NCBI RefSeq assembly: GCF_003130255.1
Contig: NZ_NRCN01000001.1
Span: 1,234,501 to 1,298,500, forward strand
Source of the DNA: Aggregatibacter kilianii
GTDB lineage: Bacteria > Pseudomonadota > Gammaproteobacteria > Enterobacterales > Pasteurellaceae
DNA: 64,000 nt
Direction: 5' to 3'
How positions within the stretch are numbered: position 1 is the first letter of the stretch; every line of letters starts with the position of its first letter. Made by a program: the position numbers and the translations under genes. Of the stretch, positions 4,687-53,559 are shown piece by piece. Under the pieces are notes generated by a model. The model ran no database searches. It saw only the letters and a list, made by a program, of their open reading frames with translations, and was not told the DNA's origin.

Positions 4687-4812
4687 AATTTACCTCTTTT
4701 GTATGATTAAAATGAAAAATTAAATACTGAAGTGATTATACCTGAAACTGAGTAGTCTGTAACCTGAATAATATTCATTAGGCAAACGATTTCCCCCTTG
4801 AGTTCCAAAGAA

Positions 4813-5508
4813 CTAATATCCTGTTCGACTGCTCGGACAATCCATCACCTGCCAATCCAAATCGTAACAAATAAACAATTCATTACGCGCCGCGCCAAGA
4901 TACGCATTTTTGAGCTGTGGGTTATTGCTTTTCACCCATTTAAACAGCTCGTTACGACTTAATTCATAGTTCGGTAGCTTCAAAGTGCGGTATAAATTTT
5001 TGATTTTTTCAAAGTAATCTTTGGCATTATCAAAGATACAGGCGCCGTGTTTTTCCCATTCGCCTTGTAACAAACTGGCGCTTGGCATTTCCGGCAAATA
5101 ACGTTCGATGAGTTCTTGCGGTAATTTTGGTAAATCGCCTTGGCAAAAACGCGGATGCTCGTTGACACGTCTGGCTTGTTTGTTTTGTGACCATAAACCG
5201 TGTACGATCCAACCGAATTGTTGTGTTAAACCACATTGGTATTGCAGTGAATTCGGCAACTCGTTGCCATATTGTTTACGTTGACGATCGCAAAACGCCG
5301 GCGACCAAGAAAGAACCAGTGTGTAATAGTCGGTTTGCGCGTTTTTATTTTGGCCGATGGGGTCATTTTTCATAATGTAGTCGTAATCCCGATCGACAAC
5401 GACACCAACCGCTTGTTTCTGCTGGGAAAAATAATACCAGCCGGCGAGTAAAAACATTAAAAAAGCCACCACAAAAAAAGACAGTAGCAACATACGTTTT
5501 TCGTTCAT
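4813..5508 (-). CDS. Ribonuclease T2 family protein (RNase I-like)
   Basis: A 231-residue protein with a hydrophobic N-terminal segment at residues 7-27, either a signal peptide or a membrane anchor. Both conserved T2 active-site motifs are present: HGLWSQ at 103-108 and EWEKHGAC at 150-157, with their catalytic histidines. Family role: nonspecific endoribonuclease in the periplasm, yielding 3'-phosphate products through a cyclic intermediate. Several cysteines (residues 73, 92, 122, 157 and the C-terminal region) could form disulfides. It is divergent from yfhL, 67 bases away. The C-terminus is short compared with E. coli RNase I. Confidence 0.85.
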   Translation of the reverse strand: MNEKRMLLLSFFVVAFLMFLLAGWYYFSQQKQAVGVVVDRDYDYIMKNDPIGQNKNAQTDYYTLVLSWSPAFCDRQRKQYGNELPNSLQYQCGLTQQFGWIVHGLWSQNKQARRVNEHPRFCQGDLPKLPQELIERYLPEMPSASLLQGEWEKHGACIFDNAKDYFEKIKNLYRTLKLPNYELSRNELFKWVKSNNPQLKNAYLGAARNELFICYDLDWQVMDCPSSRTGY

Positions 5509-41978: not shown

Positions 41979-42127
41979 TAAGAAAAGTAAAAAATATAAC
42001 ATTCAAAATCTTTTTAAGAACTATTTTAAAAAGTAGATAAATAATTGTTGAACTAAGTTTTTGGTTATTTGTCTGACAGTCAATTTTTAGAATAATTTAA
42101 TATTTATAATAACCAATGGAACACAAA

Positions 42128-44554
42128 ATGAAGAACTCACCTTATCTGTTCAAGATAGCATTTATGAGTGGTATTTCGCTTTCCACAATACCACTAACAT
42201 ACGCCAACCAAACTCCAATTGATGTCGAACGTGAAAAAATTATTATTTTTTCCAGACAGAGCGAAGCTGAATTAAAACAAGCCATTCCGAAATTAGAGAC
42301 CTTATTTCAACGCACCAAAGATTTAAAAGTTCGCGATGATTTAATCGCCCTTTATCTCCGTAGCAATCAATCAGCACAGGCGCTAAGCGTATGTAAGGAT
42401 TGTGTTCCAAGCCAATTTTCCGAAAGTGAATTGGAGAATCTTGGTAAAGCTGCCCGGAATGAAAAACAATTCCAACGCTCTTTTGAATTGTACTCTCAAT
42501 TAAACCGCAAATATCCGAAAAACCCGAATGGTTTATTAGGTTCTGCTTTGGTGGCTACTGAATTAAAAAATTATGCCATCGCAAAAGATGCGCTTATTCG
42601 TTATAAAAAACGTTTTGGGACAGATGCGGGATATCTTGATGCACAAAGCTATTTATTGGATTTTACTGAATCCGATATGGTGAAATTAGGACGTTGGCAA
42701 AAAGAATTGGAAAAAAATCCGAAAAATACCACTCTTGCTACGAATTTATATCGTTTAGCATCCAGATATAACATGCATCCGTTGCAAGAAAAATTACAAC
42801 GTGATTATCCGGATTTATTCGGCCAAAAAGATCAACTTTGGTTTGAGCATGATAAAGCGGTTTCTTCTGCCAAGAATGCGGCAGGCGAGCGGGAATATTT
42901 AAAAAAATCATTTGCAGAATTGACCGCACTTTTACAAAAAATTGAGCCGGCACATCCGCTTTATCAACAAACACAGCTTGACCGATTTGTGTTGGGTGTA
43001 CGACTTCATAAATTTGATGAAATTGAACGTGATTATAATACGTTAAAAGATTTACCAAACTCGCCGATTTATTTGCAGGAAGCCTTGGGGGATTATCGTT
43101 TGGCTCAAGGTTCGCCGCATCAAGCCTTAGCAACATACGAAGCGATTGTTCAACAATATACGGAAAAGAAGCAGCCGATTAGCGACGGATTGTTCTTGAA
43201 AATGTCTTTAGCTGCCAGTGACGCAGGAAAGTTTGCTTTAGCCCAACAATATTTGGAAAAAGTGAAAGATACGCCTTACGTGAATGACTATACACGTACT
43301 TCTCGCGTGGTAAATCCATCTTACGATGAGCGTTATTTTGGCTTGGCACGTTTAGCGTTATGGCGTGGCAATACTCGGTTGGCACAAGCATTAGTGGATG
43401 CGCGGGCATTGGATAAAACGCCCGGCGATCCTTGGGTATTATTGCAAAAAGCCGATTTAGAACGTGGCCGTCATAATTTTGATGATGCCAAAATCTGGGC
43501 GCACAAAGCCGAGGTTTTCTTCCCTGGGGACGAGGATAAGAAATTTGTGCGTTATTCGTTAATTGAAACGGCACTAAGACAAAATGACTTACCAACGGCC
43601 ACACGCTTAATTAATGAGATGAGTAACAAAGAAAAGGAAGAGGCTCAATCATTGATTGAACGCTATGATTTGGCACATAGCGGTCGCATTGTCGGCAATA
43701 TTAACTTGCAACACCGTACGTCTGCACCAATCAAACAACACAATGAATTTTTGCAAAATTATGCGATTTACACACCAAAAACTAACAATGGACATGATGT
43801 GTATGTACGTTATTTAGAAACCCATTCACCGGTGGGGCGTAGTGACTTGAATGCACAATTTGTTGGCGTTGGTTCCGAGCTGAATTTCTATCCTTTTAAT
43901 ATGAATCTTGAGGTAGGGCAAGGCATTAAGCTAAACAAACGAACTTATGTCACATCTGATTTAAGTTATGAATTAAACCAACGTTGGAAATTTAACTTAA
44001 GTGGCCACCTAAATGGTAGCCAAGTGCCTGTGAGAGCAGCGGCGCAGAATGTGTATACCAAAGGCGGCGGACTGTCCTCCACATATACCTATTCCGATTG
44101 GTTCATTTTAGGCGCCGGCGCTTATTTCTCTGATTTTAGCGATGGTAACTTAAGACGCGATGCGAATTTATGGTTGAATACCCAAACCTTTAAACACGAT
44201 CGTTGGACGCTGACCAATAATTTCCGTGTGGATTACATGAAAAACAAAACCATTGCATCGGCTGATTATTATAATCCGTCTAAAGCAGTGGGGTATGAGG
44301 CCGGCGCAGATCTTGCGTATTATCAACCATGGGATCACAAAATCATCCTAACACATCATTTAAAAGGCTCTTTGGGGGCTTATAAACAACAAACCCAAGA
44401 TCGTGCCAAAACATGGTCAATTGCTTATGGACATGAGTGGCGAATTGCGAAGAAATACAGCCTTTCTTATGAGATCGGGCGTAAAAAGAATATTTATGAC
44501 GGTAACCCCGAATTTAATAACTTCGGCAATTTAGCCTTTTCACTGTATTACTAA
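42128..44554 (+). CDS. pgaA: PNAG outer membrane export porin PgaA
   Basis: An 808-residue protein started at ATG 42128, which gives a signal peptide (cleavage after TYA near residue 22); an ATG four codons earlier is possible. Residues about 30-500 form TPR-like helical repeats, and the last 300 residues a beta-barrel rich in alternating aromatic and polar residues, ending LAFSLYY with an outer-membrane C-terminal signature. It exports partly deacetylated poly-beta-1,6-N-acetylglucosamine. First gene of pgaABCD. Confidence 0.94.
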   Translation: MKNSPYLFKIAFMSGISLSTIPLTYANQTPIDVEREKIIIFSRQSEAELKQAIPKLETLFQRTKDLKVRDDLIALYLRSNQSAQALSVCKDCVPSQFSESELENLGKAARNEKQFQRSFELYSQLNRKYPKNPNGLLGSALVATELKNYAIAKDALIRYKKRFGTDAGYLDAQSYLLDFTESDMVKLGRWQKELEKNPKNTTLATNLYRLASRYNMHPLQEKLQRDYPDLFGQKDQLWFEHDKAVSSAKNAAGEREYLKKSFAELTALLQKIEPAHPLYQQTQLDRFVLGVRLHKFDEIERDYNTLKDLPNSPIYLQEALGDYRLAQGSPHQALATYEAIVQQYTEKKQPISDGLFLKMSLAASDAGKFALAQQYLEKVKDTPYVNDYTRTSRVVNPSYDERYFGLARLALWRGNTRLAQALVDARALDKTPGDPWVLLQKADLERGRHNFDDAKIWAHKAEVFFPGDEDKKFVRYSLIETALRQNDLPTATRLINEMSNKEKEEAQSLIERYDLAHSGRIVGNINLQHRTSAPIKQHNEFLQNYAIYTPKTNNGHDVYVRYLETHSPVGRSDLNAQFVGVGSELNFYPFNMNLEVGQGIKLNKRTYVTSDLSYELNQRWKFNLSGHLNGSQVPVRAAAQNVYTKGGGLSSTYTYSDWFILGAGAYFSDFSDGNLRRDANLWLNTQTFKHDRWTLTNNFRVDYMKNKTIASADYYNPSKAVGYEAGADLAYYQPWDHKIILTHHLKGSLGAYKQQTQDRAKTWSIAYGHEWRIAKKYSLSYEIGRKKNIYDGNPEFNNFGNLAFSLYY

Positions 44555-44569
44555 TTTTCGGTGGGATTC

Positions 44570-46468
44570 ATGAAAATTTTACAAAAATTAACACAATTTA
44601 TTATTTTTACATTAGTTTTTTTAACCGGAACGGTGTTTGCGCAAGATCGTTACGCTGTGTTGGCCTATCATTCAGTAGTAGATGATACGGCGTCAAAAGA
44701 AGAAAAATATTATTTCCCGCAAACTATTTCCACAAATTTGTTAATTAGTCATTTTAATTGGTTGAAAGATAACGGTTATAACGTGGTAAGTTGGCAGCAA
44801 ATTATTGACGCGGAAAATGGCAAAGGTACTTTGCCGGATCATGCCGTATTGCTCTCTTTTGATGATGGTTATGCCACCATGTATAACGTGATTTACCCGA
44901 TCTTAAAAGCCTATAACTATCCTGCCGTATTTGCACCGGTTTCCAGCTGGTTAAATACACCGGTAACGAAGAAAATTCCTTATGCAAATACGTATCTTCC
45001 TCGTAGCGTTTTTGTGACTTGGGAACAAGTGAGTGAAATGGAAAAAAGCGGTTTAGTGGAAATTGCTTCACATACTCATGACTCCCATCATGGGGTGCGC
45101 GCTAATCCTGCAGGTAGTCAACTTCCGGCAGTTATTTCTCCGGAATATAAAAATAATAAATATGAGACTAAGGCTGAATACCGAAATCGTTTAGTACGTG
45201 ATTTCACGCTTTCTTCTCAAAGCATTCAACGTGAAGTCGGCAAGAAACCACGCATTATGGTTTGGCCCTATGGTCAGTTTAACAATACTGCAGTCGACGT
45301 TGCTCGCGAAGTCGGCATGAGCCATCACTTTTCGTTAGGTGAAAAACTGATTAACAAAGTGGGCGATAAATATATCGGGCGTTTGTTAATTGACACGGAA
45401 ACTGGCTTTTCGACTATTAAACATTATCTTGACGGTGTGAGTGATGAAGTAAAAATGCCACGTGTTGTGCATATTAAGTTAGATGACATTTACAACGTCG
45501 ATAAAAAACAGCAAGCCAAAAATTTAGACGTCTTAATTGAACGGATTTACCGCTACGGCATTACGACCGTTTATTTGCAAGCCTATTCCGATGCTGATGG
45601 CGATGGCGTAGCAGATGCGTTGTATTTCCCAAATAGCTATTTGCCGATTAGAGACGATATTTTCAGTCAAATTTCATGGCAATTAAGAACTCGCGCTGAA
45701 GTTAAGGTATATGCTTGGATGCCGATATTGGCGTTTGATTTGCGAAATAGCGTAAAAGATGCCGAGTATATGGTGAATAGCCGCACTAATCAACCACGAC
45801 TTTCTCCTTATAGCCGTAAGAATATTGAAATGATTAAGTCTATTTATAACGACTTATCGTTCCACGCCAAATTTGATGGCATTTTATTCAGTGATGATGC
45901 CTTCCTTAGTGATTTTGAAGGCATGTCGAGTCACGGTAATCAAAGTGCGGTTAATTTTGCAACTAAACAGAAAACCGATGATTTAATTAAGGTAACTGAT
46001 CAGTTGGTGGAAGGGGTAAAACCGTATTTCTTGTTTGGTACAAATGCCTTAAGAACTGCGCGTAATATATATGCCTCGGTGATTACTGAGCCGAAAGCAG
46101 AGGCGTTGTTCGCACAAAATCTTAGCGTCTTATCCAAACACTATGACACGACGGTCATTATGGCGATGCCTTACACGGAACATGAACAAGATATTTCCGA
46201 GAGAGAAGCAAAAGCATGGTTTGAAACCTTGATTAATAATGTGAAAGCACAAGTACCATTGGATAAAGTACTCTTTGAGTTCCAAACTGTGAATGGGCAC
46301 ACACAAAAAGCAATTCCGGAAAGTGAGTTAATTAGTTGGATTCAGTTATTACAGAAACACAACATTTATAGTTATGGCTATTATCCGGATAACTTCTTGA
46401 AAGATCAGCCAAGCATTCAACAAATGCGTCCTTATATGTCGGTTAATACCAAAGCAGGTAAACCCTAA
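44570..46468 (+). CDS. pgaB: PNAG N-deacetylase PgaB
   Basis: A 632-residue two-domain enzyme started at ATG 44570 with GGTGGGA upstream; a GTG at 44561 is less likely. The N-terminal polysaccharide deacetylase domain has SFDDGY with metal-binding Asp98-Asp99 and SHTHDSHH near 167. The C-terminal domain (from about 295) is the glycoside hydrolase-like part found in PgaB. It removes some acetyl groups so PgaA can export the polymer. The signal peptide ends FAQDR with no cysteine, so it lacks the lipobox of E. coli PgaB. Confidence 0.93.
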   Translation: MKILQKLTQFIIFTLVFLTGTVFAQDRYAVLAYHSVVDDTASKEEKYYFPQTISTNLLISHFNWLKDNGYNVVSWQQIIDAENGKGTLPDHAVLLSFDDGYATMYNVIYPILKAYNYPAVFAPVSSWLNTPVTKKIPYANTYLPRSVFVTWEQVSEMEKSGLVEIASHTHDSHHGVRANPAGSQLPAVISPEYKNNKYETKAEYRNRLVRDFTLSSQSIQREVGKKPRIMVWPYGQFNNTAVDVAREVGMSHHFSLGEKLINKVGDKYIGRLLIDTETGFSTIKHYLDGVSDEVKMPRVVHIKLDDIYNVDKKQQAKNLDVLIERIYRYGITTVYLQAYSDADGDGVADALYFPNSYLPIRDDIFSQISWQLRTRAEVKVYAWMPILAFDLRNSVKDAEYMVNSRTNQPRLSPYSRKNIEMIKSIYNDLSFHAKFDGILFSDDAFLSDFEGMSSHGNQSAVNFATKQKTDDLIKVTDQLVEGVKPYFLFGTNALRTARNIYASVITEPKAEALFAQNLSVLSKHYDTTVIMAMPYTEHEQDISEREAKAWFETLINNVKAQVPLDKVLFEFQTVNGHTQKAIPESELISWIQLLQKHNIYSYGYYPDNFLKDQPSIQQMRPYMSVNTKAGKP

Positions 46469-46477
46469 GGATAGATA

Positions 46478-47713
46478 ATGAGCGTATTTGACACATTAAG
46501 TATATTTGTTTTCATGTACCCGGCCGGTATGGCAGTTTATTGGTTTATGGCCGGTGCTTGTTATTACCTATTAAAGGAAGGCAAGCTAAATGAACCGATT
46601 TCCCGCTATATGCCTGAACATGATGTGCCGATGATCAGTCTTATGGTGCCTTGTTATAACGAAGGTGACAACTTAGATGAATCGATCCCACACTTGTTAC
46701 AACTGAGATATCCGAACTACGAGCTAATTTTTATTAATGACGGTAGTAAAGATAACACCGGTGAAATCATTGACCGATGGGCGGCGAAAGAAAAGAAAAT
46801 CACTGCATTACACCAAGAAAATCAGGGCAAAGCGAGTGCGTTAAACCATGGTTTAACCATTGCCAAGGGGAAATACGTTGCCTGTATTGACGGGGATGCT
46901 GTGTTGGATTACTACGCATTGGATTACATGGTGCAAGCCTTAGAGAAAGATCCAAAATATGCTGCGACTACGGGCAATCCGCGTGTGCGTAATCGTAGTA
47001 CGATCCTTGGACGCTTACAGGTGTCCGAATTTAGTTCCATCATTGGTTTAATTAAACGCGCGCAAGGTTTAATGGGAACCATCTTCACCGTTTCCGGCGT
47101 CTGTTGCTTATTCCGTAAAGATGTTATGGAAGAAATCGGCGGGTGGAGTACCAACATGATCACTGAGGACATTGATATCAGTTGGAAAATCCAGATTGCG
47201 GGTTACAACATCATGTACGAACCGCGTGCACTTTGTTGGGTGTTAATGCCGGAAAGCATGAAAGGGTTATACAAACAACGCTTACGTTGGGCGCAAGGTG
47301 GGGCTGAAACTATCATTAAATATTTCCCGAAAATTTGGCATTGGAAAAATCGCCGCTTATGGCCCATGTATATTGAATACTTTGTCACGGCTATCTGGGC
47401 AGTGCTTTGGGTATTATTTGCGATCTTTACTTTGGGACAAAAATTTATTTTCGGCATTGACATTCAAAACATGAGACTGTTTGAAACTAACATTTCAATT
47501 ATGTTTTTTGCTTTCTTTTTACAATGTATTTTAAGTTTATATATCGACTCAAGATATGAAAGGGACCTGTTGCGTTATGGGCTATCCTGTATTTGGTATC
47601 CTTACGTTTATTGGCTATTAAATACGGTGACATTGTTGGTAGGTATTCCGAAGGCAATTTTTAGAAATAAATCTAAATTTGCCGTATGGACAAGCCCGGA
47701 CAGAGGAGTATAG
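46478..47713 (+). CDS. pgaC: PNAG synthase catalytic subunit PgaC
   Basis: A 411-residue family 2 processive glycosyltransferase with an N-terminal helix and three or four C-terminal helices. Motifs in order: VPCYNEGDN near 55, CIDGDAVLD near 139 (DxD-type), TEDIDISW near 226 and QRLRWAQGG near 265 (QxxRW). It polymerises UDP-GlcNAc at the inner membrane with PgaD. It follows pgaB by 9 bases. Confidence 0.95.
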   Translation: MSVFDTLSIFVFMYPAGMAVYWFMAGACYYLLKEGKLNEPISRYMPEHDVPMISLMVPCYNEGDNLDESIPHLLQLRYPNYELIFINDGSKDNTGEIIDRWAAKEKKITALHQENQGKASALNHGLTIAKGKYVACIDGDAVLDYYALDYMVQALEKDPKYAATTGNPRVRNRSTILGRLQVSEFSSIIGLIKRAQGLMGTIFTVSGVCCLFRKDVMEEIGGWSTNMITEDIDISWKIQIAGYNIMYEPRALCWVLMPESMKGLYKQRLRWAQGGAETIIKYFPKIWHWKNRRLWPMYIEYFVTAIWAVLWVLFAIFTLGQKFIFGIDIQNMRLFETNISIMFFAFFLQCILSLYIDSRYERDLLRYGLSCIWYPYVYWLLNTVTLLVGIPKAIFRNKSKFAVWTSPDRGV

Positions 47714-47715
47714 AT

Positions 47716-48009
47716 ATGTCTTCGTCAGATGAATTACAAAAATCCATGGTGATTGATAAAAGTAATCACCTCTCCTTTAAAATGCTTGCCAAAAACTTTA
47801 TTTTGGATCTGCTGACTTGGGGATTATGGATATACAGTATTGCGTTTATTATCAAGTATGCAAAAGGTATTTTTACCCGTCCGATCTTAGAGGAATTTTT
47901 TTTCCACGACGTGGTTGGCCTTATGTTCCTCGCCGCCATTGTACTTGTGGTGGCCACATTTTTCTGGTCGATAATTTCTAAGGGAAGACGTCAGAAAGAG
48001 AGAAAATAA
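47716..48009 (+). CDS. pgaD: PNAG synthase accessory subunit PgaD
   Basis: A 97-residue protein started at ATG 47716 with AGAGGAG upstream; the ATG at 47686 lies inside pgaC and has no ribosome site. It has two membrane helices (about residues 28-48 and 63-85) and a basic C-terminus (SKGRRQKERK). It supports PgaC activity and in E. coli is a site of c-di-GMP control; conservation of that control here is unknown. It is shorter than E. coli PgaD. Confidence 0.88.
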   Translation: MSSSDELQKSMVIDKSNHLSFKMLAKNFILDLLTWGLWIYSIAFIIKYAKGIFTRPILEEFFFHDVVGLMFLAAIVLVVATFFWSIISKGRRQKERK

Positions 48010-48076: not shown

Positions 48077-50137
48077 TCAGAAGCTATATTTCAAGTTAGA
48101 GAAATATACACGCCCTTCTTCCGGATAACCCGCCTGATAGTAATAGTTTTTATCAAACAGATTAGACACTCCTGCCTCCACACTGAATTGTTTCGTTACA
48201 TCATAGATCACTTTTGCATTGGTGACACCAAAGGCGGAAAGTTTGACTAATTCGGCTTTTTTGCCGATGCCATCGGTGCTATAACGACCATGTTCCGCTT
48301 CTTGGCTGACATAGAGGGATAGGTTTGGCATGACTTTCCAATCCACATAAGCAAAGAATTTATGTTTTGGAATATTGCGAATGCTGTAGTTTGTGTTCAT
48401 TTTGTTTTTCGCACGAGTGTAGGTGTAATTCGCACCGAACGTTAAGTTATCTGTCGCAAAAATAGTCGCCGCAAGTTCTACGCCTTTAAAGACTTCTTTG
48501 CCATAGTTGACATTTTTTTCCATACCGTTTTTTTGTTTCACCGGTTCAATGGCATCTTTGACTTCAGAATAGAATAAAGCACCATCTAATCGTAGCCAAT
48601 CACCAAAAGTTCGCATATAACTGGTTTCATAGTGATATGCCGCTTCAGGGCCTAGGTATGGATTCGGTTCGGTAGAGCCAAATCGACGTGAATAACGATC
48701 TTTCATGGTTGGGAAACGCGTTTTTTTAGCGAAACCAAGGGTGAATTCGTCATTTTGATCGAAACTATGTACTAATTTGAGTTGGTAGTTGAACGCATTT
48801 TTATTACCAACATTAAATGGGCAAAGCGCATTGGTGGTGCCTAGGCTCTCACATCGATTTTCACTTTCATAACTTTCCGCACGTTTTGCTTCACGGTGAT
48901 CAAAACTGACACCTGTAATCAGTTTGGTTTGCTCCGAGAAGGTATGCGTGTTTTCTAATCCGAAGCTGTATGTTCTGTCTTTGCTTGTTTCAACCGGATC
49001 AAAGCGATTGTATTTAGGATATTCGGTGTGACCACGATGCACATCGAATTTTGCAATAGAGGAGAATTTAATCAGATCTTTTTCGGTTAAATTACCGCCT
49101 AATTCAATGCCTACACCATAAGAATAATCTCTGTAATAGCTGTCTCCATTTTTAATGGATTTTCTGGGTCTAATGTTTAATGTTTGTGTGCTAAATGTCG
49201 CATCGTCAAAGCTAGAAAGTTTATTTTTAAATGTGTCGTAGAACACTTTTGTATTCAGATACAAGTTGTGGGAATCAAATTGCGTATGGGATAAGAAATA
49301 AATGCTGTCTTTATTCCATTCCGGCCAACGCCAGTAACGATCTTGGGAATTTTTATTTGCACCGGAATATAAGGGTTGCTGTTTATTGCCTTTTTGGGTG
49401 GAAAGTACCAATGCATATTCATCGGTCGTATTTGGGGTAAATGCCATTTTTAAGCTGAGTTTTTTATCCCGTTGTACCGAGTTTTCCGCACGGCCGCCAT
49501 CATCGCCTTTGGGATTGATTTGATGATAATGTTTAGAAAGCTGTAAACCTTGTTTTTCTACAAAAGAGCCACTTAATTGTGCGTAGAAATATTCTTGTTT
49601 TGTGCCTAAGTTAAAATAAGTTTGGTTTGTACCGGTATCACCGCTGCGACCATGAGCGAAACCGTAACCGATTGTGCCTTCAAAGAGTTGAGTTGGTTTC
49701 TGGGTAATCAGGTTTACCGCACCGCCCAACGTATTGGCACCATATAAGACGGAACTTGCGCCTTTGGAAATATCCATGCGGGACAAATCAAAGGTAGTAA
49801 AACGACCGATGTCCATATTGCCGTCATAAGGCACATACACCGGAACACCGTCGATAAAGATTGGTACACGGCGGGCATCAAAACCACGTACTAACAAATT
49901 ATGTTCACTGCGCGCCCCGCTACGTTCTAAAAATACGCCCGGTGTGGTTTTCGCCACATCAGAAACGCGAATTTGGTTGTTTTTTTGTAAGTCCGTCTGA
50001 TTAATACGGGTGGTGCTTAAATCCGTCGATTTATCGGCAATCACCTCAATTTGCCCAAGCGTAAAAACCTCTTCGGCATACGCGGTTGTGCAAGCCATGG
50101 CAATGGCAATGGCAGTGCAAAGTAATGTTTTTTTCAT
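48077..50137 (-). CDS. TonB-dependent outer membrane receptor
   Basis: A 686-residue receptor. It has a signal peptide (cleavage after AYA, residue 21), a possible TonB box in FTLGQIEVIA, a plug domain (about 35-150: VSDVAKTTPGV, LLVRGFDARRVPIFIDGVP, GASSVLYGANTLGGAVN) and a 22-strand barrel ending LKYSF. The ligand cannot be read from sequence. It is cotranscribed behind a small membrane protein (1-base gap, AAAAGGA ribosome site) and divergent from an ABC importer with which it shares two ModE-like boxes. That argues for an oxyanion or metal complex, possibly molybdate or tungstate, rather than Fur-controlled iron. Confidence 0.9.
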   Translation of the reverse strand: MKKTLLCTAIAIAMACTTAYAEEVFTLGQIEVIADKSTDLSTTRINQTDLQKNNQIRVSDVAKTTPGVFLERSGARSEHNLLVRGFDARRVPIFIDGVPVYVPYDGNMDIGRFTTFDLSRMDISKGASSVLYGANTLGGAVNLITQKPTQLFEGTIGYGFAHGRSGDTGTNQTYFNLGTKQEYFYAQLSGSFVEKQGLQLSKHYHQINPKGDDGGRAENSVQRDKKLSLKMAFTPNTTDEYALVLSTQKGNKQQPLYSGANKNSQDRYWRWPEWNKDSIYFLSHTQFDSHNLYLNTKVFYDTFKNKLSSFDDATFSTQTLNIRPRKSIKNGDSYYRDYSYGVGIELGGNLTEKDLIKFSSIAKFDVHRGHTEYPKYNRFDPVETSKDRTYSFGLENTHTFSEQTKLITGVSFDHREAKRAESYESENRCESLGTTNALCPFNVGNKNAFNYQLKLVHSFDQNDEFTLGFAKKTRFPTMKDRYSRRFGSTEPNPYLGPEAAYHYETSYMRTFGDWLRLDGALFYSEVKDAIEPVKQKNGMEKNVNYGKEVFKGVELAATIFATDNLTFGANYTYTRAKNKMNTNYSIRNIPKHKFFAYVDWKVMPNLSLYVSQEAEHGRYSTDGIGKKAELVKLSAFGVTNAKVIYDVTKQFSVEAGVSNLFDKNYYYQAGYPEEGRVYFSNLKYSF

Positions 50138-50138
50138 C

Positions 50139-50636
50139 TTAATGTCCTTTTAAGTTTAGATTCGATAGGGGTGGCGTAAAGCGAAGTTTCAGCGCAATCG
50201 TAGCGGCAGCAAAAATCTTCTCGTCGTTATGCGGAAAATTTTGCCGCAAAGTGCGGTGAATATTTTTTACGTTTATTTTCCCTGCCACCAATTCTTGTTG
50301 TAGCGTGGCTAAATTCAGGTTTAATTGCTCGGCAATTTGCACAATGGAAAAATGCTCAAAGGTCATGATCAGACGATCTAAATTGCAATAACTCGGATAG
50401 CGATTGCGTAGCACCAAATCGGCAAATTGTGTATTGATTTTCACCAGTTTATTTTTACGGTTTAGCATGTGTAATAACAAACCGGCAACCAGCAATAGGG
50501 CAAAGCTAATATGAACGTTAAGTAATGAGTCTATCGGCCAACCCCAAAGTAGCCCCACGCCACTTATCACCACACACAGCAAACTGATAATTAGCACGCA
50601 CAACAGCAAAAATTTGTAAATAACCTCAAACTTCAT
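50139..50636 (-). CDS. Membrane protein of unknown function in the receptor operon
   Basis: A 165-residue protein with two membrane helices (about residues 8-32 and 40-60). A histidine lies at each end of the second helix (VHISF and LLHML, 15 residues apart), a spacing seen in haem-binding helices, though that is only suggestive. The soluble C-terminal half reads FSIVQIAEQLNLNLATLQQEL, like a helix-turn-helix. I do not recognise the family. It is the first gene of the unit and sits next to the TonB receptor gene. Confidence 0.65.
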   Translation of the reverse strand: MKFEVIYKFLLLCVLIISLLCVVISGVGLLWGWPIDSLLNVHISFALLLVAGLLLHMLNRKNKLVKINTQFADLVLRNRYPSYCNLDRLIMTFEHFSIVQIAEQLNLNLATLQQELVAGKINVKNIHRTLRQNFPHNDEKIFAAATIALKLRFTPPLSNLNLKGH

Positions 50637-50670
50637 GATCTTTATCCAATAGAGTTAAGGGAAAATATAA

Positions 50671-50694
50671 CGATATATATTGATAGCTATAGCG
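50671..50694. promoter_or_regulatory. ModE-like operator 1
   Basis: CGATATA, 10 bases, then TATAGCG gives a 24-bp imperfect palindrome. The layout CGnTATA-N10-TATAnCG equals that of E. coli modA's operator (CGTTATA...CATAACG, same 24-bp span) as I remember it. It lies 35 bases upstream of the 165-residue membrane protein gene. Confidence 0.55.
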
Positions 50695-50715
50695 TAATTA
50701 TTCTAGCAAATTTCA

Positions 50716-50739
50716 GGTTATATATTCAAAAATATATCG
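50716..50739. promoter_or_regulatory. ModE-like operator 2
   Basis: GGTTATA, 10 bases, then TATATCG has the same 24-bp geometry as the first box with one mismatch. It includes the perfect dyad ATATATT-CAAA-AATATAT (50720-50737). It lies 57 bases upstream of the binding-protein gene start. Confidence 0.5.
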
Positions 50740-50795
50740 GGTTTTAGTAGAATTCAAAACGTTATTTTTTATGACCGCACTTTTAAGGATTGATG

Positions 50796-51800
50796 ATGAA
50801 AAAATGGTTTGGGTTATTTCTTGCTCTCTTTTTTGCTCATTCTGTGTTGGCAGAAAATACGCCTACGATATTTTGGGCGGGAGAGCTTCCGCCTGTGCAA
50901 AAGATTGACAAAGTCTTAAGCGCGGGTAATCCGAGTGACGTGTTATTGCTATCGGTCGCGCCACAGAAAATGGTGGGACTGGCAGGCTTTAACATGGCAT
51001 CGCAAGGTGGCAAGTTATTTCCTGCTGAACAACAAGCGTTGCCGACAATAGGCAAAATTGCCGGCAAGGGTAGCACGCTTTCTGCGGAAAAAATCGTGGC
51101 GTTGCAGCCGAATTTGATTATTGATGTGGGGAATGTCACGCCGAATTATATTGACCAAGCTAAGCGTATTTTTGCCCAGACCGGCGTACCTTATCTATTA
51201 TTAGACGGCAGACTTTCTACCACGCCAAATACCTTGCGTGAATTGGGAAAATGGTTGGGCGTGGAACAATTAACGGAACAGCAAGCACAATATGCGGAAG
51301 AAACCTTAAAAAGTGCGGTCGATTTTTCCGCTGTTTTACAACAAACTGCTTACTTGGCGCGCAGCGCCGATGGCTTACAAACCGGGCAAAAAGGGTCTAT
51401 TCATACTGAAGCCATGGAGTTGGTGGGGTTGCGGAATGTAGTGGAAGGGGAATACAAAGGCTTAACGCAAGTGTCTATGGAGCAGTTGTTGCTTTGGAAT
51501 CCCGACATCATTCTGACGCAATACGCCGAATTTTTCCAAACCATCAAAAATAATCCGCAATGGAGCCAATTAAGTGCGGTGAAAAATCAGCGCGTTTTTT
51601 TCATTCCTAACCAGCCGTTCGGTTGGCTCGATTCACCGCCAAGTTTGAATCGCTTGCTTGGCGTGCGTTGGTTACAACATTTGCTAAGCAACAAGCCGAT
51701 GGCAGACTTCGCGCCGGAAGTGCAGCGTTTTTATAAATTGTTCTACCACATTGATTTGACAACAGCACAGGCAGAACAACTGCTGAAACAAGGACAATAA
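50796..51800 (+). CDS. Periplasmic binding protein of a BtuF/FepB/MolA-type ABC importer
   Basis: A 334-residue cluster A-type solute-binding protein. The ATG at 50796 is chosen for its AAGGA at 6 bases; other ATG/TTG codons lie just upstream. The signal peptide ends SVLA near residue 20. The two lobes are joined by a long helix around residue 150-180, and GWLDSPPSLNRLLGVRW near 280 is a conserved block of the family. It delivers a chelated metal, cobalamin or oxyanion to the permease. Substrate unproven; ModE-like boxes upstream suggest molybdate or tungstate. Confidence 0.85.
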   Translation: MKKWFGLFLALFFAHSVLAENTPTIFWAGELPPVQKIDKVLSAGNPSDVLLLSVAPQKMVGLAGFNMASQGGKLFPAEQQALPTIGKIAGKGSTLSAEKIVALQPNLIIDVGNVTPNYIDQAKRIFAQTGVPYLLLDGRLSTTPNTLRELGKWLGVEQLTEQQAQYAEETLKSAVDFSAVLQQTAYLARSADGLQTGQKGSIHTEAMELVGLRNVVEGEYKGLTQVSMEQLLLWNPDIILTQYAEFFQTIKNNPQWSQLSAVKNQRVFFIPNQPFGWLDSPPSLNRLLGVRWLQHLLSNKPMADFAPEVQRFYKLFYHIDLTTAQAEQLLKQGQ

Positions 51801-52813
51801 TGCAACAATTTATCCAACGTTCCCCACGAATTTTCTTTTTGCTACTGATTGCACTGTTAATCGGCAGTATTTTGTTTGCCTTGAATGTGGGTAAATTTCC
51901 CATTTCACCAAGCCAATTATGGCAAACAGTAGTCTGTTCATGGGATTCGCAATGTAACGCCGATTCACCGATTCACACCGTGTTATGGCAAATTCGTTCT
52001 CCGCGCATTGTGGTGGCATGTTTAGTGGGGGCGGCGTTGGCTTGTGCGGGGGCAACCTATCAAGGCATGTTTAAAAATCCATTAGTTTCACCGGATATTT
52101 TGGGTGTATCTGCGGGAGCAGGATTGGGCGCATCCTTAGCGATTTTTTACAGTTTGCCGATGTTTTACATTCAGCTTTTTGCTTTTCTTGGTGGTATTTC
52201 TGCGGTCTTTTGTGTCTCGCTCATTGCTTCTCGCAGTAAAGATCAAGACCCGATTTTGGTTTTAGTCCTTGCCGGCATTGCCATTGGCTCTTTGCTTGGT
52301 GCGGGCATTTCATTATTAAAAATCCTCGCCGATCCGTTTACTCAACTGCCTTCCATCACGTTTTGGTTGCTCGGCAGTTTAACCGCCATCACACCGAAAG
52401 ATGTGCTGCAACTGGCACCGATTTTAATGCTTGGCATGGCACCGTTATTTTTATTGCGTTGGCGTTTAAATTTGCTTTCGTTGGAAGAGGAAGAGGCGCG
52501 CAGTTTAGGTGTGCCGATTAAAGCTACCCGTTACATTTTGATTATTTTCACCACCATTTGCACCGCAAGTGCGGTGTCGATTACAGGCATTATCGGTTGG
52601 GTCGGATTGCTCGTGCCACACATTGCCCGCTTGTTGGTGGGGGCGAATTTTATTTTGCTGTTGCCAACCTCTTTGTTGCTTGGTGCAAGTTTTCTGTTAT
52701 TAACGGACACCTTGGCTCGTACCATTGCCGGCATTGAACTGCCTCTTGGTATTCTCACTTCTGCGTGTGGCGCGCCGTTCTTTCTTTATTTGTTATTGCG
52801 GGGCAGACGATGA
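51800..52813 (+). CDS. FecCD-family ABC permease
   Basis: A 337-residue permease with ten predicted helices. ACAGATYQGMFKNPLVSPDILG near residue 80 (read in two parts) is the FecCD N-terminal signature, and SITGIIGWVGLLVPHIAR near 260 is the coupling-helix region. It overlaps the binding-protein stop as TAATG and the ATPase start as ATGA, so the three genes form one tight operon. Two copies would make the membrane channel. Confidence 0.93.
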   Translation: MQQFIQRSPRIFFLLLIALLIGSILFALNVGKFPISPSQLWQTVVCSWDSQCNADSPIHTVLWQIRSPRIVVACLVGAALACAGATYQGMFKNPLVSPDILGVSAGAGLGASLAIFYSLPMFYIQLFAFLGGISAVFCVSLIASRSKDQDPILVLVLAGIAIGSLLGAGISLLKILADPFTQLPSITFWLLGSLTAITPKDVLQLAPILMLGMAPLFLLRWRLNLLSLEEEEARSLGVPIKATRYILIIFTTICTASAVSITGIIGWVGLLVPHIARLLVGANFILLLPTSLLLGASFLLLTDTLARTIAGIELPLGILTSACGAPFFLYLLLRGRR

Positions 52814-53559
52814 ATTTGATCGAAACCCATGATTTAGCCATTGGTTACGGCAACAACGTTTTAATAAATAACATCAATTTCTGTCTAAAGGAAAAACAAA
52901 TTTGTTGTTTATTGGGGGCTAATGGGGCAGGAAAGAGTACCTTTTTGAAAACCTTGCTTGGTTTGCAACCGGCATTACAAGGCGAAGTTTATTGGCAACA
53001 AGAGCCGCTTTCTGCTTATACACCGGCGGAATTGGCGCGCAATATTGCCTATGTGCCACAAGCGCACCAACATTTGTTCCCGTTTTTAGTGCAGGACATG
53101 GTGTTGATGGGGCGCTCAGCCTTTTTGAAGTGGTATCAAACGCCAAAAGCGGAAGATAAAGAATTGGCACTGTCAGCGCTTGCCGATTTACAAATCGAAC
53201 ATCTTGCCAATCGTTATTATCCTGAATTGAGCGGGGGAGAGAAACAACTTGTGCTCATTGCTCGTGCTATTGCACAGCAAGCCAAATTGTTGGTGATGGA
53301 TGAGCCTACCGCAAGCCTCGATTTTGGCAACCAAATTCGTGTGTTGGAAAAAATCAAACAGCTGCAAGTGCAAAATATCGCCTTGCTCATTACTACCCAT
53401 AATCCACAACAGGCCATGTATTTGGCAGAAAATATTTTATTGCTTGATCAAGAATATGGTTTCCAACAGGACTCGCAGGAACGGCTATTGACCCTAGAAA
53501 ACTTAGCCAAAATCTACCGCACTTCTGTGCCACAATTGGCTCAGCATTTGAATTTTTAA
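52810..53559 (+). CDS. ABC importer ATPase
   Basis: A 249-residue ATPase started at ATG 52810, overlapping the permease stop by 4 bases. An in-frame upstream extension lies inside the permease gene. Walker A is GANGAGKST near residue 37, the Q-loop lies in YVPQAHQ near 83, the signature is LSGGEKQ near 139, Walker B is LLVMDEPTA near 160 and the switch His is in TTHN near 197. It powers the FecCD permease encoded next to it. Confidence 0.94.
   Translation: MNLIETHDLAIGYGNNVLINNINFCLKEKQICCLLGANGAGKSTFLKTLLGLQPALQGEVYWQQEPLSAYTPAELARNIAYVPQAHQHLFPFLVQDMVLMGRSAFLKWYQTPKAEDKELALSALADLQIEHLANRYYPELSGGEKQLVLIARAIAQQAKLLVMDEPTASLDFGNQIRVLEKIKQLQVQNIALLITTHNPQQAMYLAENILLLDQEYGFQQDSQERLLTLENLAKIYRTSVPQLAQHLNF

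Follow-up and report, generated by a model that had tools for sequence, protein, structure and literature searches.

Two ModE-type operators between a TonB-dependent receptor unit and a FecCD-type importer operon in Aggregatibacter kilianii, and a receptor clade likely linked to molybdenum

Between a TonB-dependent receptor unit and an ABC importer operon of Aggregatibacter kilianii, within the 64,000-nucleotide stretch of DNA analyzed here (hereafter, the window), lie two sites that follow the ModE operator pattern. The same genome carries a modE gene, the sites recur before relatives of the receptor both in the family Pasteurellaceae and in other phyla, and many of these relatives are linked to mod- or mol-like genes. 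Judging from sequence, we consider it probable that the two sites are ModE operators through which both divergent operons would be repressed at ample molybdate, and that the receptor and the FecCD-type importer likely make up one molybdenum (or tungsten) route across both membranes. More broadly, there is a ModE-linked clade of TonB receptors whose members likely import molybdenum or tungsten, perhaps in chelated form. We infer ModE binding at these sites, repression by ModE, and molybdenum as the substrate, with transport by the receptor deduced from shared control and from neighboring genes.

Two ModE-type sites in the divergent spacer

The spacer separating the divergent receptor unit and importer operon (50637-50792) is 156 bp long with 27% G+C (73% A+T). 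Operator 1 (50671-50694, CGATATATATTGATAGCTATAGCG) matches the pattern CGnTATA-N10-TATAnCG exactly and operator 2 (50716-50739, GGTTATATATTCAAAAATATATCG) matches it with one mismatch, their starts being spaced 45 bp apart; our re-scan thus confirmed the pair as originally predicted. In each, the CGnTATA half-sites are inverted with 10 bp between them, as in a ModE operator. The consensus for the E. coli operator is given as ATCGNTATATA-N6-TATATANCGAT (PMC545781), and the sites described here have the same half-sites, 24-bp core, and spacing. Like that consensus, the sites we gathered outside the genus favor the TATATA extension, which was mostly unselected for. Unlike the E. coli operators, which belong to modABC and molybdoenzyme genes, here two sites share one spacer between divergent TonB-receptor and FecCD-importer operons.

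Palindromes of this type might be chance products of an AT-rich promoter region or sites of another regulator, and some of the counts lean in that direction. The pattern with two or fewer mismatches is common in the genome (96 places versus 146 for the reversed pattern) and is mostly background outside the spacer, while the bare core TATA-N10-TATA is hardly enriched (52 versus 42 reversed) and is background on its own. Across the 64-kb window, three sites with two or fewer mismatches were seen versus 2.24 expected, i.e., such sites are not rare. Against this, neither an exact site nor two separate sites with at most one mismatch arose in 5000 dinucleotide shuffles of the spacer (0/5000 for each), and any single site with at most one mismatch arose in 13/5000. 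The concern that the motif might be just as frequent in AT-rich spacers was therefore not borne out, and a chance origin was rejected for the exact site and for the pair. Given also that the site is conserved over the family and in other phyla, and is absent at this stringency before other receptors of the genus (see below), we regard chance or another regulator as a very improbable source of the two sites.

Promoter-like sequences overlap both operators. The predicted receptor-unit promoter lies at 50700-50729 on the minus strand (TTGAAT-18-TAGAAT, with TG ahead of the second hexamer) and the predicted importer-operon promoter at 50725-50753 on the plus strand (TTCAAA-17-TAGAAT); both are consensus matches, and such matches are weak, with three in the spacer versus 1.8 expected by shuffling. 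If the minus-strand prediction is right, operator 1 covers its start region; operator 2 shares bases with the -35 hexamers predicted for both directions. In the mechanism that we propose, molybdate-loaded ModE would cover both promoters, and molybdenum shortage would open both operons so that the receptor and importer are made. Molybdenum (or tungsten) would then cross the outer membrane through the TonB receptor and the inner membrane through the FecCD-type ABC importer.

The best match of the spacer to the Fur consensus covers 11 of 19 positions, a score attained by 96% of 1000 shuffles, so the earlier statement that no convincing Fur box is present stands. Fur control of the spacer was accordingly rejected.

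Genes flanking the spacer

Domain matches agree with the described layout of a TonB receptor unit and an ABC importer around a short divergent spacer. The first gene of the receptor unit (50139-50636, minus strand) encodes a 165-aa membrane protein, and one base beyond it on the same strand is the gene for the TonB-dependent outer-membrane receptor (48077-50137), a 686-aa protein with Plug and beta-barrel domains (PF07715, 76 bits; PF00593, 108 bits), with matches to the TonB-transporter fold as well. The receptor belongs to the molybdenum-linked clade described below. Its N-terminal stretch EEVFTLGQIEV resembles a TonB box by eye. The predicted structure of the receptor is of moderate confidence (mean pLDDT 65.8, with 180 of 686 residues below 50), and the uncertainty of its loops rules out placement of a ligand site. 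Identity to the 50 solved chains listed is 13-19%. The Plug, the barrel, and, at the moderate confidence of the model, the overall fold are common to BtuB, CirA, FepA/PfeA, and OprC; unlike these, the window receptor is under a ModE-type site, has relatives linked to molybdate genes, and carries a residue signature of its own.

On the plus strand, the importer operon encodes a 334-aa periplasmic binding protein (Peripla_BP_2, 50796-51800), a FecCD-type permease (51800-52813), and an ABC ATPase (52810-53559, with the start set at an internal ATG). The permease has HI1471, the MolB of Haemophilus influenzae, as its best solved relative (structure 2nq2, 222.7 bits), but the permease of a second importer in this genome is equally close to HI1471 (223.4 bits). 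For the binding protein, the best solved match is 4pag; HI1472 (MolA) ranks third with 51.9 bits, and this match is confined to the C-terminal half (residues 176-318). The name MolBCA was not adopted outright for the importer, as the MolA match is partial and the second importer is equally close to HI1471. The system resembles H. influenzae MolBCA (HI1470-HI1472) in that its FecCD permease is nearest to HI1471 among solved structures, and molybdenum-dependent repression of molB is reported in H. influenzae (PMC4031551). It differs from MolBCA in its binding protein, which is alike only in part, and in the TonB receptor and 165-aa membrane protein encoded divergently from the importer. The same H. 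influenzae study describes MolBCA as low-affinity, its deletion being without effect on uptake at low molybdate (PMC4031551), which would argue against a scavenging role if the window importer behaves alike.

The 165-aa protein yielded no Pfam or NCBIfam family match and no PDB fold match at E 0.001, and its few named relatives are all from Pasteurellaceae. Residues H42, H56, and C84 are invariant in 16 aligned relatives, with H42 and H56 located 14 residues apart in the second long helix; from its sequence, the protein might bind heme or have a redox role.

The receptor gene looks mosaic, with 95% identity to its counterpart in one family genome (G020) versus 78% in another (G017). For the 165-aa protein the corresponding values are 77% and 97%, and for the binding protein they are 91% and 96%. 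Elsewhere in the window (42116-48009), four genes resemble the pgaABCD poly-N-acetylglucosamine operon, as judged by eye from their translations.

ModE and further sites in the genome

Absence of a ModE gene would have spoken against the original prediction, but the genome encodes one full-length ModE (131 bits to TIGR00637, above the cut-off) with TOBE domains. It aligns nearly end to end with E. coli ModE, its best solved relative (1b9m); the helix-turn-helix region is conserved and the DNA-binding part shares the motif SYKSAWD. The modE gene is divergent from modABC.

At most one mismatch to the pattern is found at four places in the 2.46-Mb genome: operators 1 and 2, a site 72 bp before a gene for a SAM-dependent methyltransferase, and a site between queE and a NIF3-family gene. 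Nine of the 52 bare cores fall in six spacers that are otherwise tied to molybdenum or to such importers, namely that of the window and those of the methyltransferase gene, moaA, a second mod operon, modE-modA, and a second FecCD-type importer. A profile built from 25 sites of Pasteurellaceae outside the genus, taken in both orientations, was also run against the genome, with 150 of 1349 candidates scored. Six places among these matched with E values of 0.03 to 4: the queE/NIF3 spacer (the top match), moaA, operator 2 (E 0.06), the second mod operon, and two adjacent places before another FecCD-type permease. Operator 1 and the methyltransferase site were absent from the matches among these 150 candidates.

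It had been suggested that a genome scan should place the motif before modABC and molybdoenzyme genes, and this was borne out in part. The set is mostly molybdenum-related, with moaA and the second modABCD operon among the matches. The best site in the modE-modA spacer of this genome has three mismatches, and the top match is unexplained. In 20 relatives, the closest match to the pattern within the 260 bp preceding modE has from one to five mismatches (two or fewer in 8/20), so that modABC was set aside as a weak positive control. The top match (C2:154551-154574, positions 5052-5075 of L020, CGTTATATATTAAATTGTATAATG) lies between queE and the NIF3-family gene and is without a known molybdenum link.

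These sites also bear on whether the system might serve tungstate rather than molybdate, with ModE answering to both oxyanions. The sequence offers nothing that separates the two metals, and H. influenzae MolA reportedly binds both molybdate and tungstate. On the other hand, sites of the same type elsewhere in the genome precede families named for molybdate: the second mod operon encodes ModA (TIGR01256), an ABC permease (TIGR01581), an ATPase, and ModD (TIGR01334), and the moaA leader has a two-mismatch ModE-type site (positions 4586-4609 of L023) upstream of a Moco riboswitch (4701-4847). These neighbors are still compatible with tungsten; we nevertheless hold a system for tungstate in place of molybdate to be quite improbable.

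The second FecCD operon, with the order permease-ATPase-binding protein, is on contig C1 (positions 4587-7499 of L263, minus strand), and its permease is 46% identical to the window permease. The two adjacent profile matches upstream of it (C1:178030 and C1:178056) are weak, with E values of 1 and 4. The methyltransferase gene (positions 4185-4985 of L019, minus strand) has its own one-mismatch site and in other genomes is frequently found in clusters with the importer. Of the 30 methyltransferase loci examined, 11 have a site with no more than one mismatch. This gene is also found in some genomes without a ModE above the cut-off (G006 and G050-G052). Just 3' of it in A. kilianii is a match to Aggregatibacter sRNA 54 (RF02899, positions 3972-4089 of L019, minus strand).

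Conservation in the Pasteurellaceae

ModE above the cut-off was found in 104 of 140 family genomes. The receptor (E at most 1e-60) was found in 26 of the 140, the binding protein in 32, and the 165-aa protein in 33, and all genomes with any of the three are among the 104 with ModE (0 of the 36 others). Uncorrected for kinship, the Fisher P values for co-occurrence with ModE are 1.7e-4 for the receptor, 1.7e-5 for the binding protein, and 1.1e-5 for the 165-aa protein. The 26 receptor matches include five broken genes, and one match (G029) is merely 33% identical. The five broken genes are disrupted by a stop, split, or shortened (G014, G015, G019, G108, and G133).

The site is conserved before these genes in ModE-bearing relatives, where it occupies a place comparable to that of operator 1. 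In the 220 bp upstream of the receptor unit, i.e., before the 165-aa gene or, in three genomes without it, before the receptor itself, a site is present in 24 of the 26 receptor genomes when two mismatches are allowed and in 17 when only one is. The two misses are G040, in which the contig end leaves about 140 bases searchable, and G087, in which ModE, receptor, and importer are all present but the best sites depart from the pattern at four positions before the receptor unit and at three before the importer. Upstream of the 165-aa gene, the counts are 23/33 with at most one mismatch and 32/33 with at most two. For the binding-protein gene they are 18/30 and 28/30 loci, in spacers that are partly the same as those of the receptor; the 30 loci come from the 32 genomes, with G063 (a fragment), G108, and G110 unused and one from outside the list (G061) used.

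The arrangement of the genes varies across the family, and the sites are found in the different arrangements. The receptor unit retains its site where the importer is not adjacent (L064, L065, L072, and L075), and the importer retains an exact site of its own where the stretch is without the receptor (L143 and L144). In ten genomes the 165-aa gene occurs without a receptor match. In five of these ten, all from one other genus (G057, G060, G062, G065, and G066), the 165-aa and methyltransferase genes have an exact site between them. In G042 the importer comes first, followed by the methyltransferase gene, the 165-aa gene, and the receptor.

Specificity against other TonB receptors

As a control within the genus, the 850 bp before the Plug domain were searched at 30 of 105 TonB-receptor places in nine genomes. 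A site with at most one mismatch precedes the window-type receptor in 7/7 cases and the other TonB receptors in 0/23. Two-mismatch sites precede 3 of the 23 other receptors. Two of these three receptors (L283 and L272) are located directly beside importer genes, so this system may include a second receptor; a further receptor gene next to importer genes, L280, has a ModE-like site with three mismatches.

The receptor was further compared with its relatives by residue. Out of 553 relatives found by a scan with a receptor alignment, the best 80 by likeness to the query were kept (15 from Pasteurellaceae and 65 others), and the window receptor plus the 73 of these 80 that passed a length filter were set against 12 of the 23 other genus receptors. 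The 74 receptors form one clade apart from the 12 controls (FastTree support 0.93), which is partly by construction, because the relatives were chosen by likeness to the query. Residues found in at least 95% of the 74 receptors and in none of the 12 controls include, among others, E78, P92, Y101, Y104, D105, R112, W271, W274, K363, H367, and K479. Those from Y101 to R112 are located in the plug, and their conservation across phyla hints at one common ligand.

Relatives beyond the family

The 65 relatives from outside the family are 35-50% identical to the window receptor and come from Campylobacter, beta-, gamma-, and deltaproteobacteria, Bacteroidota, and Verrucomicrobia, among others. Two loci (L169 and L185) were left out because of upstream DNA that was too short, leaving 14 family and 64 outside loci in which a 350-bp zone before the receptor was searched. 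Outside the family, and among these best 80 of 553 relatives, a site is found in 23/64 loci at a limit of one mismatch and in 40/64 at a limit of two, versus 0.075 and 0.775 expected for the same 64 from 40 sets of shuffles. Sites are 100 times denser before the receptor than in the remainder of the same 80 loci (34 in 29,115 bases versus 16 in 1,370,360). The reversed pattern was found at 7/64 outside loci with at most one mismatch, but it is no independent control, since genuine sites of the form CGCTATAT match the reversed pattern too; shuffles were therefore used instead. No site with at most two mismatches was found in the searched zone of 24/64 outside loci, including those of Campylobacter (L171) and a Desulfuromonadales-type group (L189, L193, and L197).

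The recurrence of the ModE pattern before the receptor's relatives in several phyla makes molybdenum, perhaps in complexed form, the likely cargo. Uptake of molybdate or tungstate through a TonB receptor had been raised in the original prediction as an unusual idea, and finding the same pairing in other phyla strengthens it, with molybdenum still a putative substrate.

Neighboring genes were searched by tblastn. In this set of the best 80 of 553 relatives, 35 of the 65 outside loci have a modE- or modAB-like gene in the flank, and when molAB-like or methyltransferase genes are added, the counts become 41/65 outside and 11/15 inside the family (52/80 in total). These counts cover loci of this receptor only. 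The molAB-like matches (31-48% identity) are weak evidence because FecCD-type importers are common, and they may be other FecCD-type importers. One of the 41 loci (L220) has a Mop protein, not ModE, with a molybdopterin oxidoreductase gene as neighbor. With the first query set, 15 of the 65 outside loci lack both a molybdenum gene and a site with one mismatch or none. At two Bacteroidota loci (L205 and L218), a ModE-like helix-turn-helix gene is directly before the receptor with an exact site between the two; the encoded proteins score 89 and 83 bits to TIGR00637, below the cut-off of 98.5, and are without the molybdate domain. Also in Bacteroidota, genes for a MauG-like di-heme enzyme (L205 and L191) and a small, secreted-looking PF00174 protein come after the receptor gene (neighbors at 11016-12640 in L205, 10974-12561 in L191, and 3788-4282 in L218). 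PF00174 is a molybdopterin-binding oxidoreductase domain, and this neighbor was not counted as a molybdenum gene.

The MauG-like genes adjoining the receptor are among the points in favor of a different cargo. ModE could control both operons while the receptor carries another compound, such as an iron chelate, heme, or a copper complex, that is needed according to molybdenum status. Iron complexes, heme, copper, or B12 are the cargo of the named relatives of such importers and receptors, and a study of Azotobacter reports three TonB receptor operons that are on only when molybdenum and vanadium are absent (PMC9542535). Several observations count against a cargo other than molybdenum. Some relatives sit directly with modE and the modABC oxyanion importer, as at L175, in which modE, modABC, and the receptor follow in succession with an exact site before the receptor, and modE- or modAB-like genes flank over half of the outside loci, as counted above. 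The window spacer is without a Fur box, and the residues conserved from phylum to phylum hint at a shared ligand. On balance, we find a non-molybdenum cargo under ModE control unlikely, though the least improbable of the alternatives considered, and we favor molybdenum (or tungsten) as the cargo of the receptor.

Discussion

Molybdate is generally taken to enter the periplasm through porins, and, to our knowledge, textbook schemes need no dedicated outer-membrane receptor for it. If molybdenum is indeed the cargo of the system described here, a chelate is somewhat more likely than bare molybdate, although this is a guess from the usual cargo of TonB receptors and FecCD-type importers, namely complexes too large or too scarce for porins. 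The catechol molybdophores of Azotobacter are a precedent for molybdenum chelates. A wider proposal, which we regard as plausible but put forward tentatively, is that the whole clade (Pasteurellaceae, Campylobacter, beta-, gamma-, and deltaproteobacteria, Bacteroidota, and Verrucomicrobia) would provide a dedicated, energized outer-membrane entry for molybdenum, in many members under ModE, with a molybdophore- or pterin-bound chelate and not free molybdate as the cargo.

No ModE- or molybdate-controlled TonB receptor was found in the literature surveyed, the coverage of work on ModE sites and on MolA being incomplete. The classes of regulator and transporter are known; their pairing is new, and the cargo class is likely new. 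A specific outer-membrane step for molybdate has been proposed in Pseudomonas, where ModA-IcmP is described as such a route (PMC8602904). In that respect it is like the system proposed here, but the IcmP of that description is a metalloproteinase of the outer membrane acting together with secreted ModA, and it is not presented as a TonB receptor controlled by ModE (PMC8602904).

If our reading is correct, ModE would become a candidate for a factor already invoked in H. influenzae. According to Rice and co-workers, molB expression falls 10-fold and modB expression 7-fold with molybdate, and the authors invoke an unknown factor in the molybdate repression of the mol operon (PMC4031551). Molybdenum would also gain a TonB-dependent route of its own, as iron, B12, and copper have, and the form in which bacteria take up molybdenum would become testable with one receptor and one binding protein.
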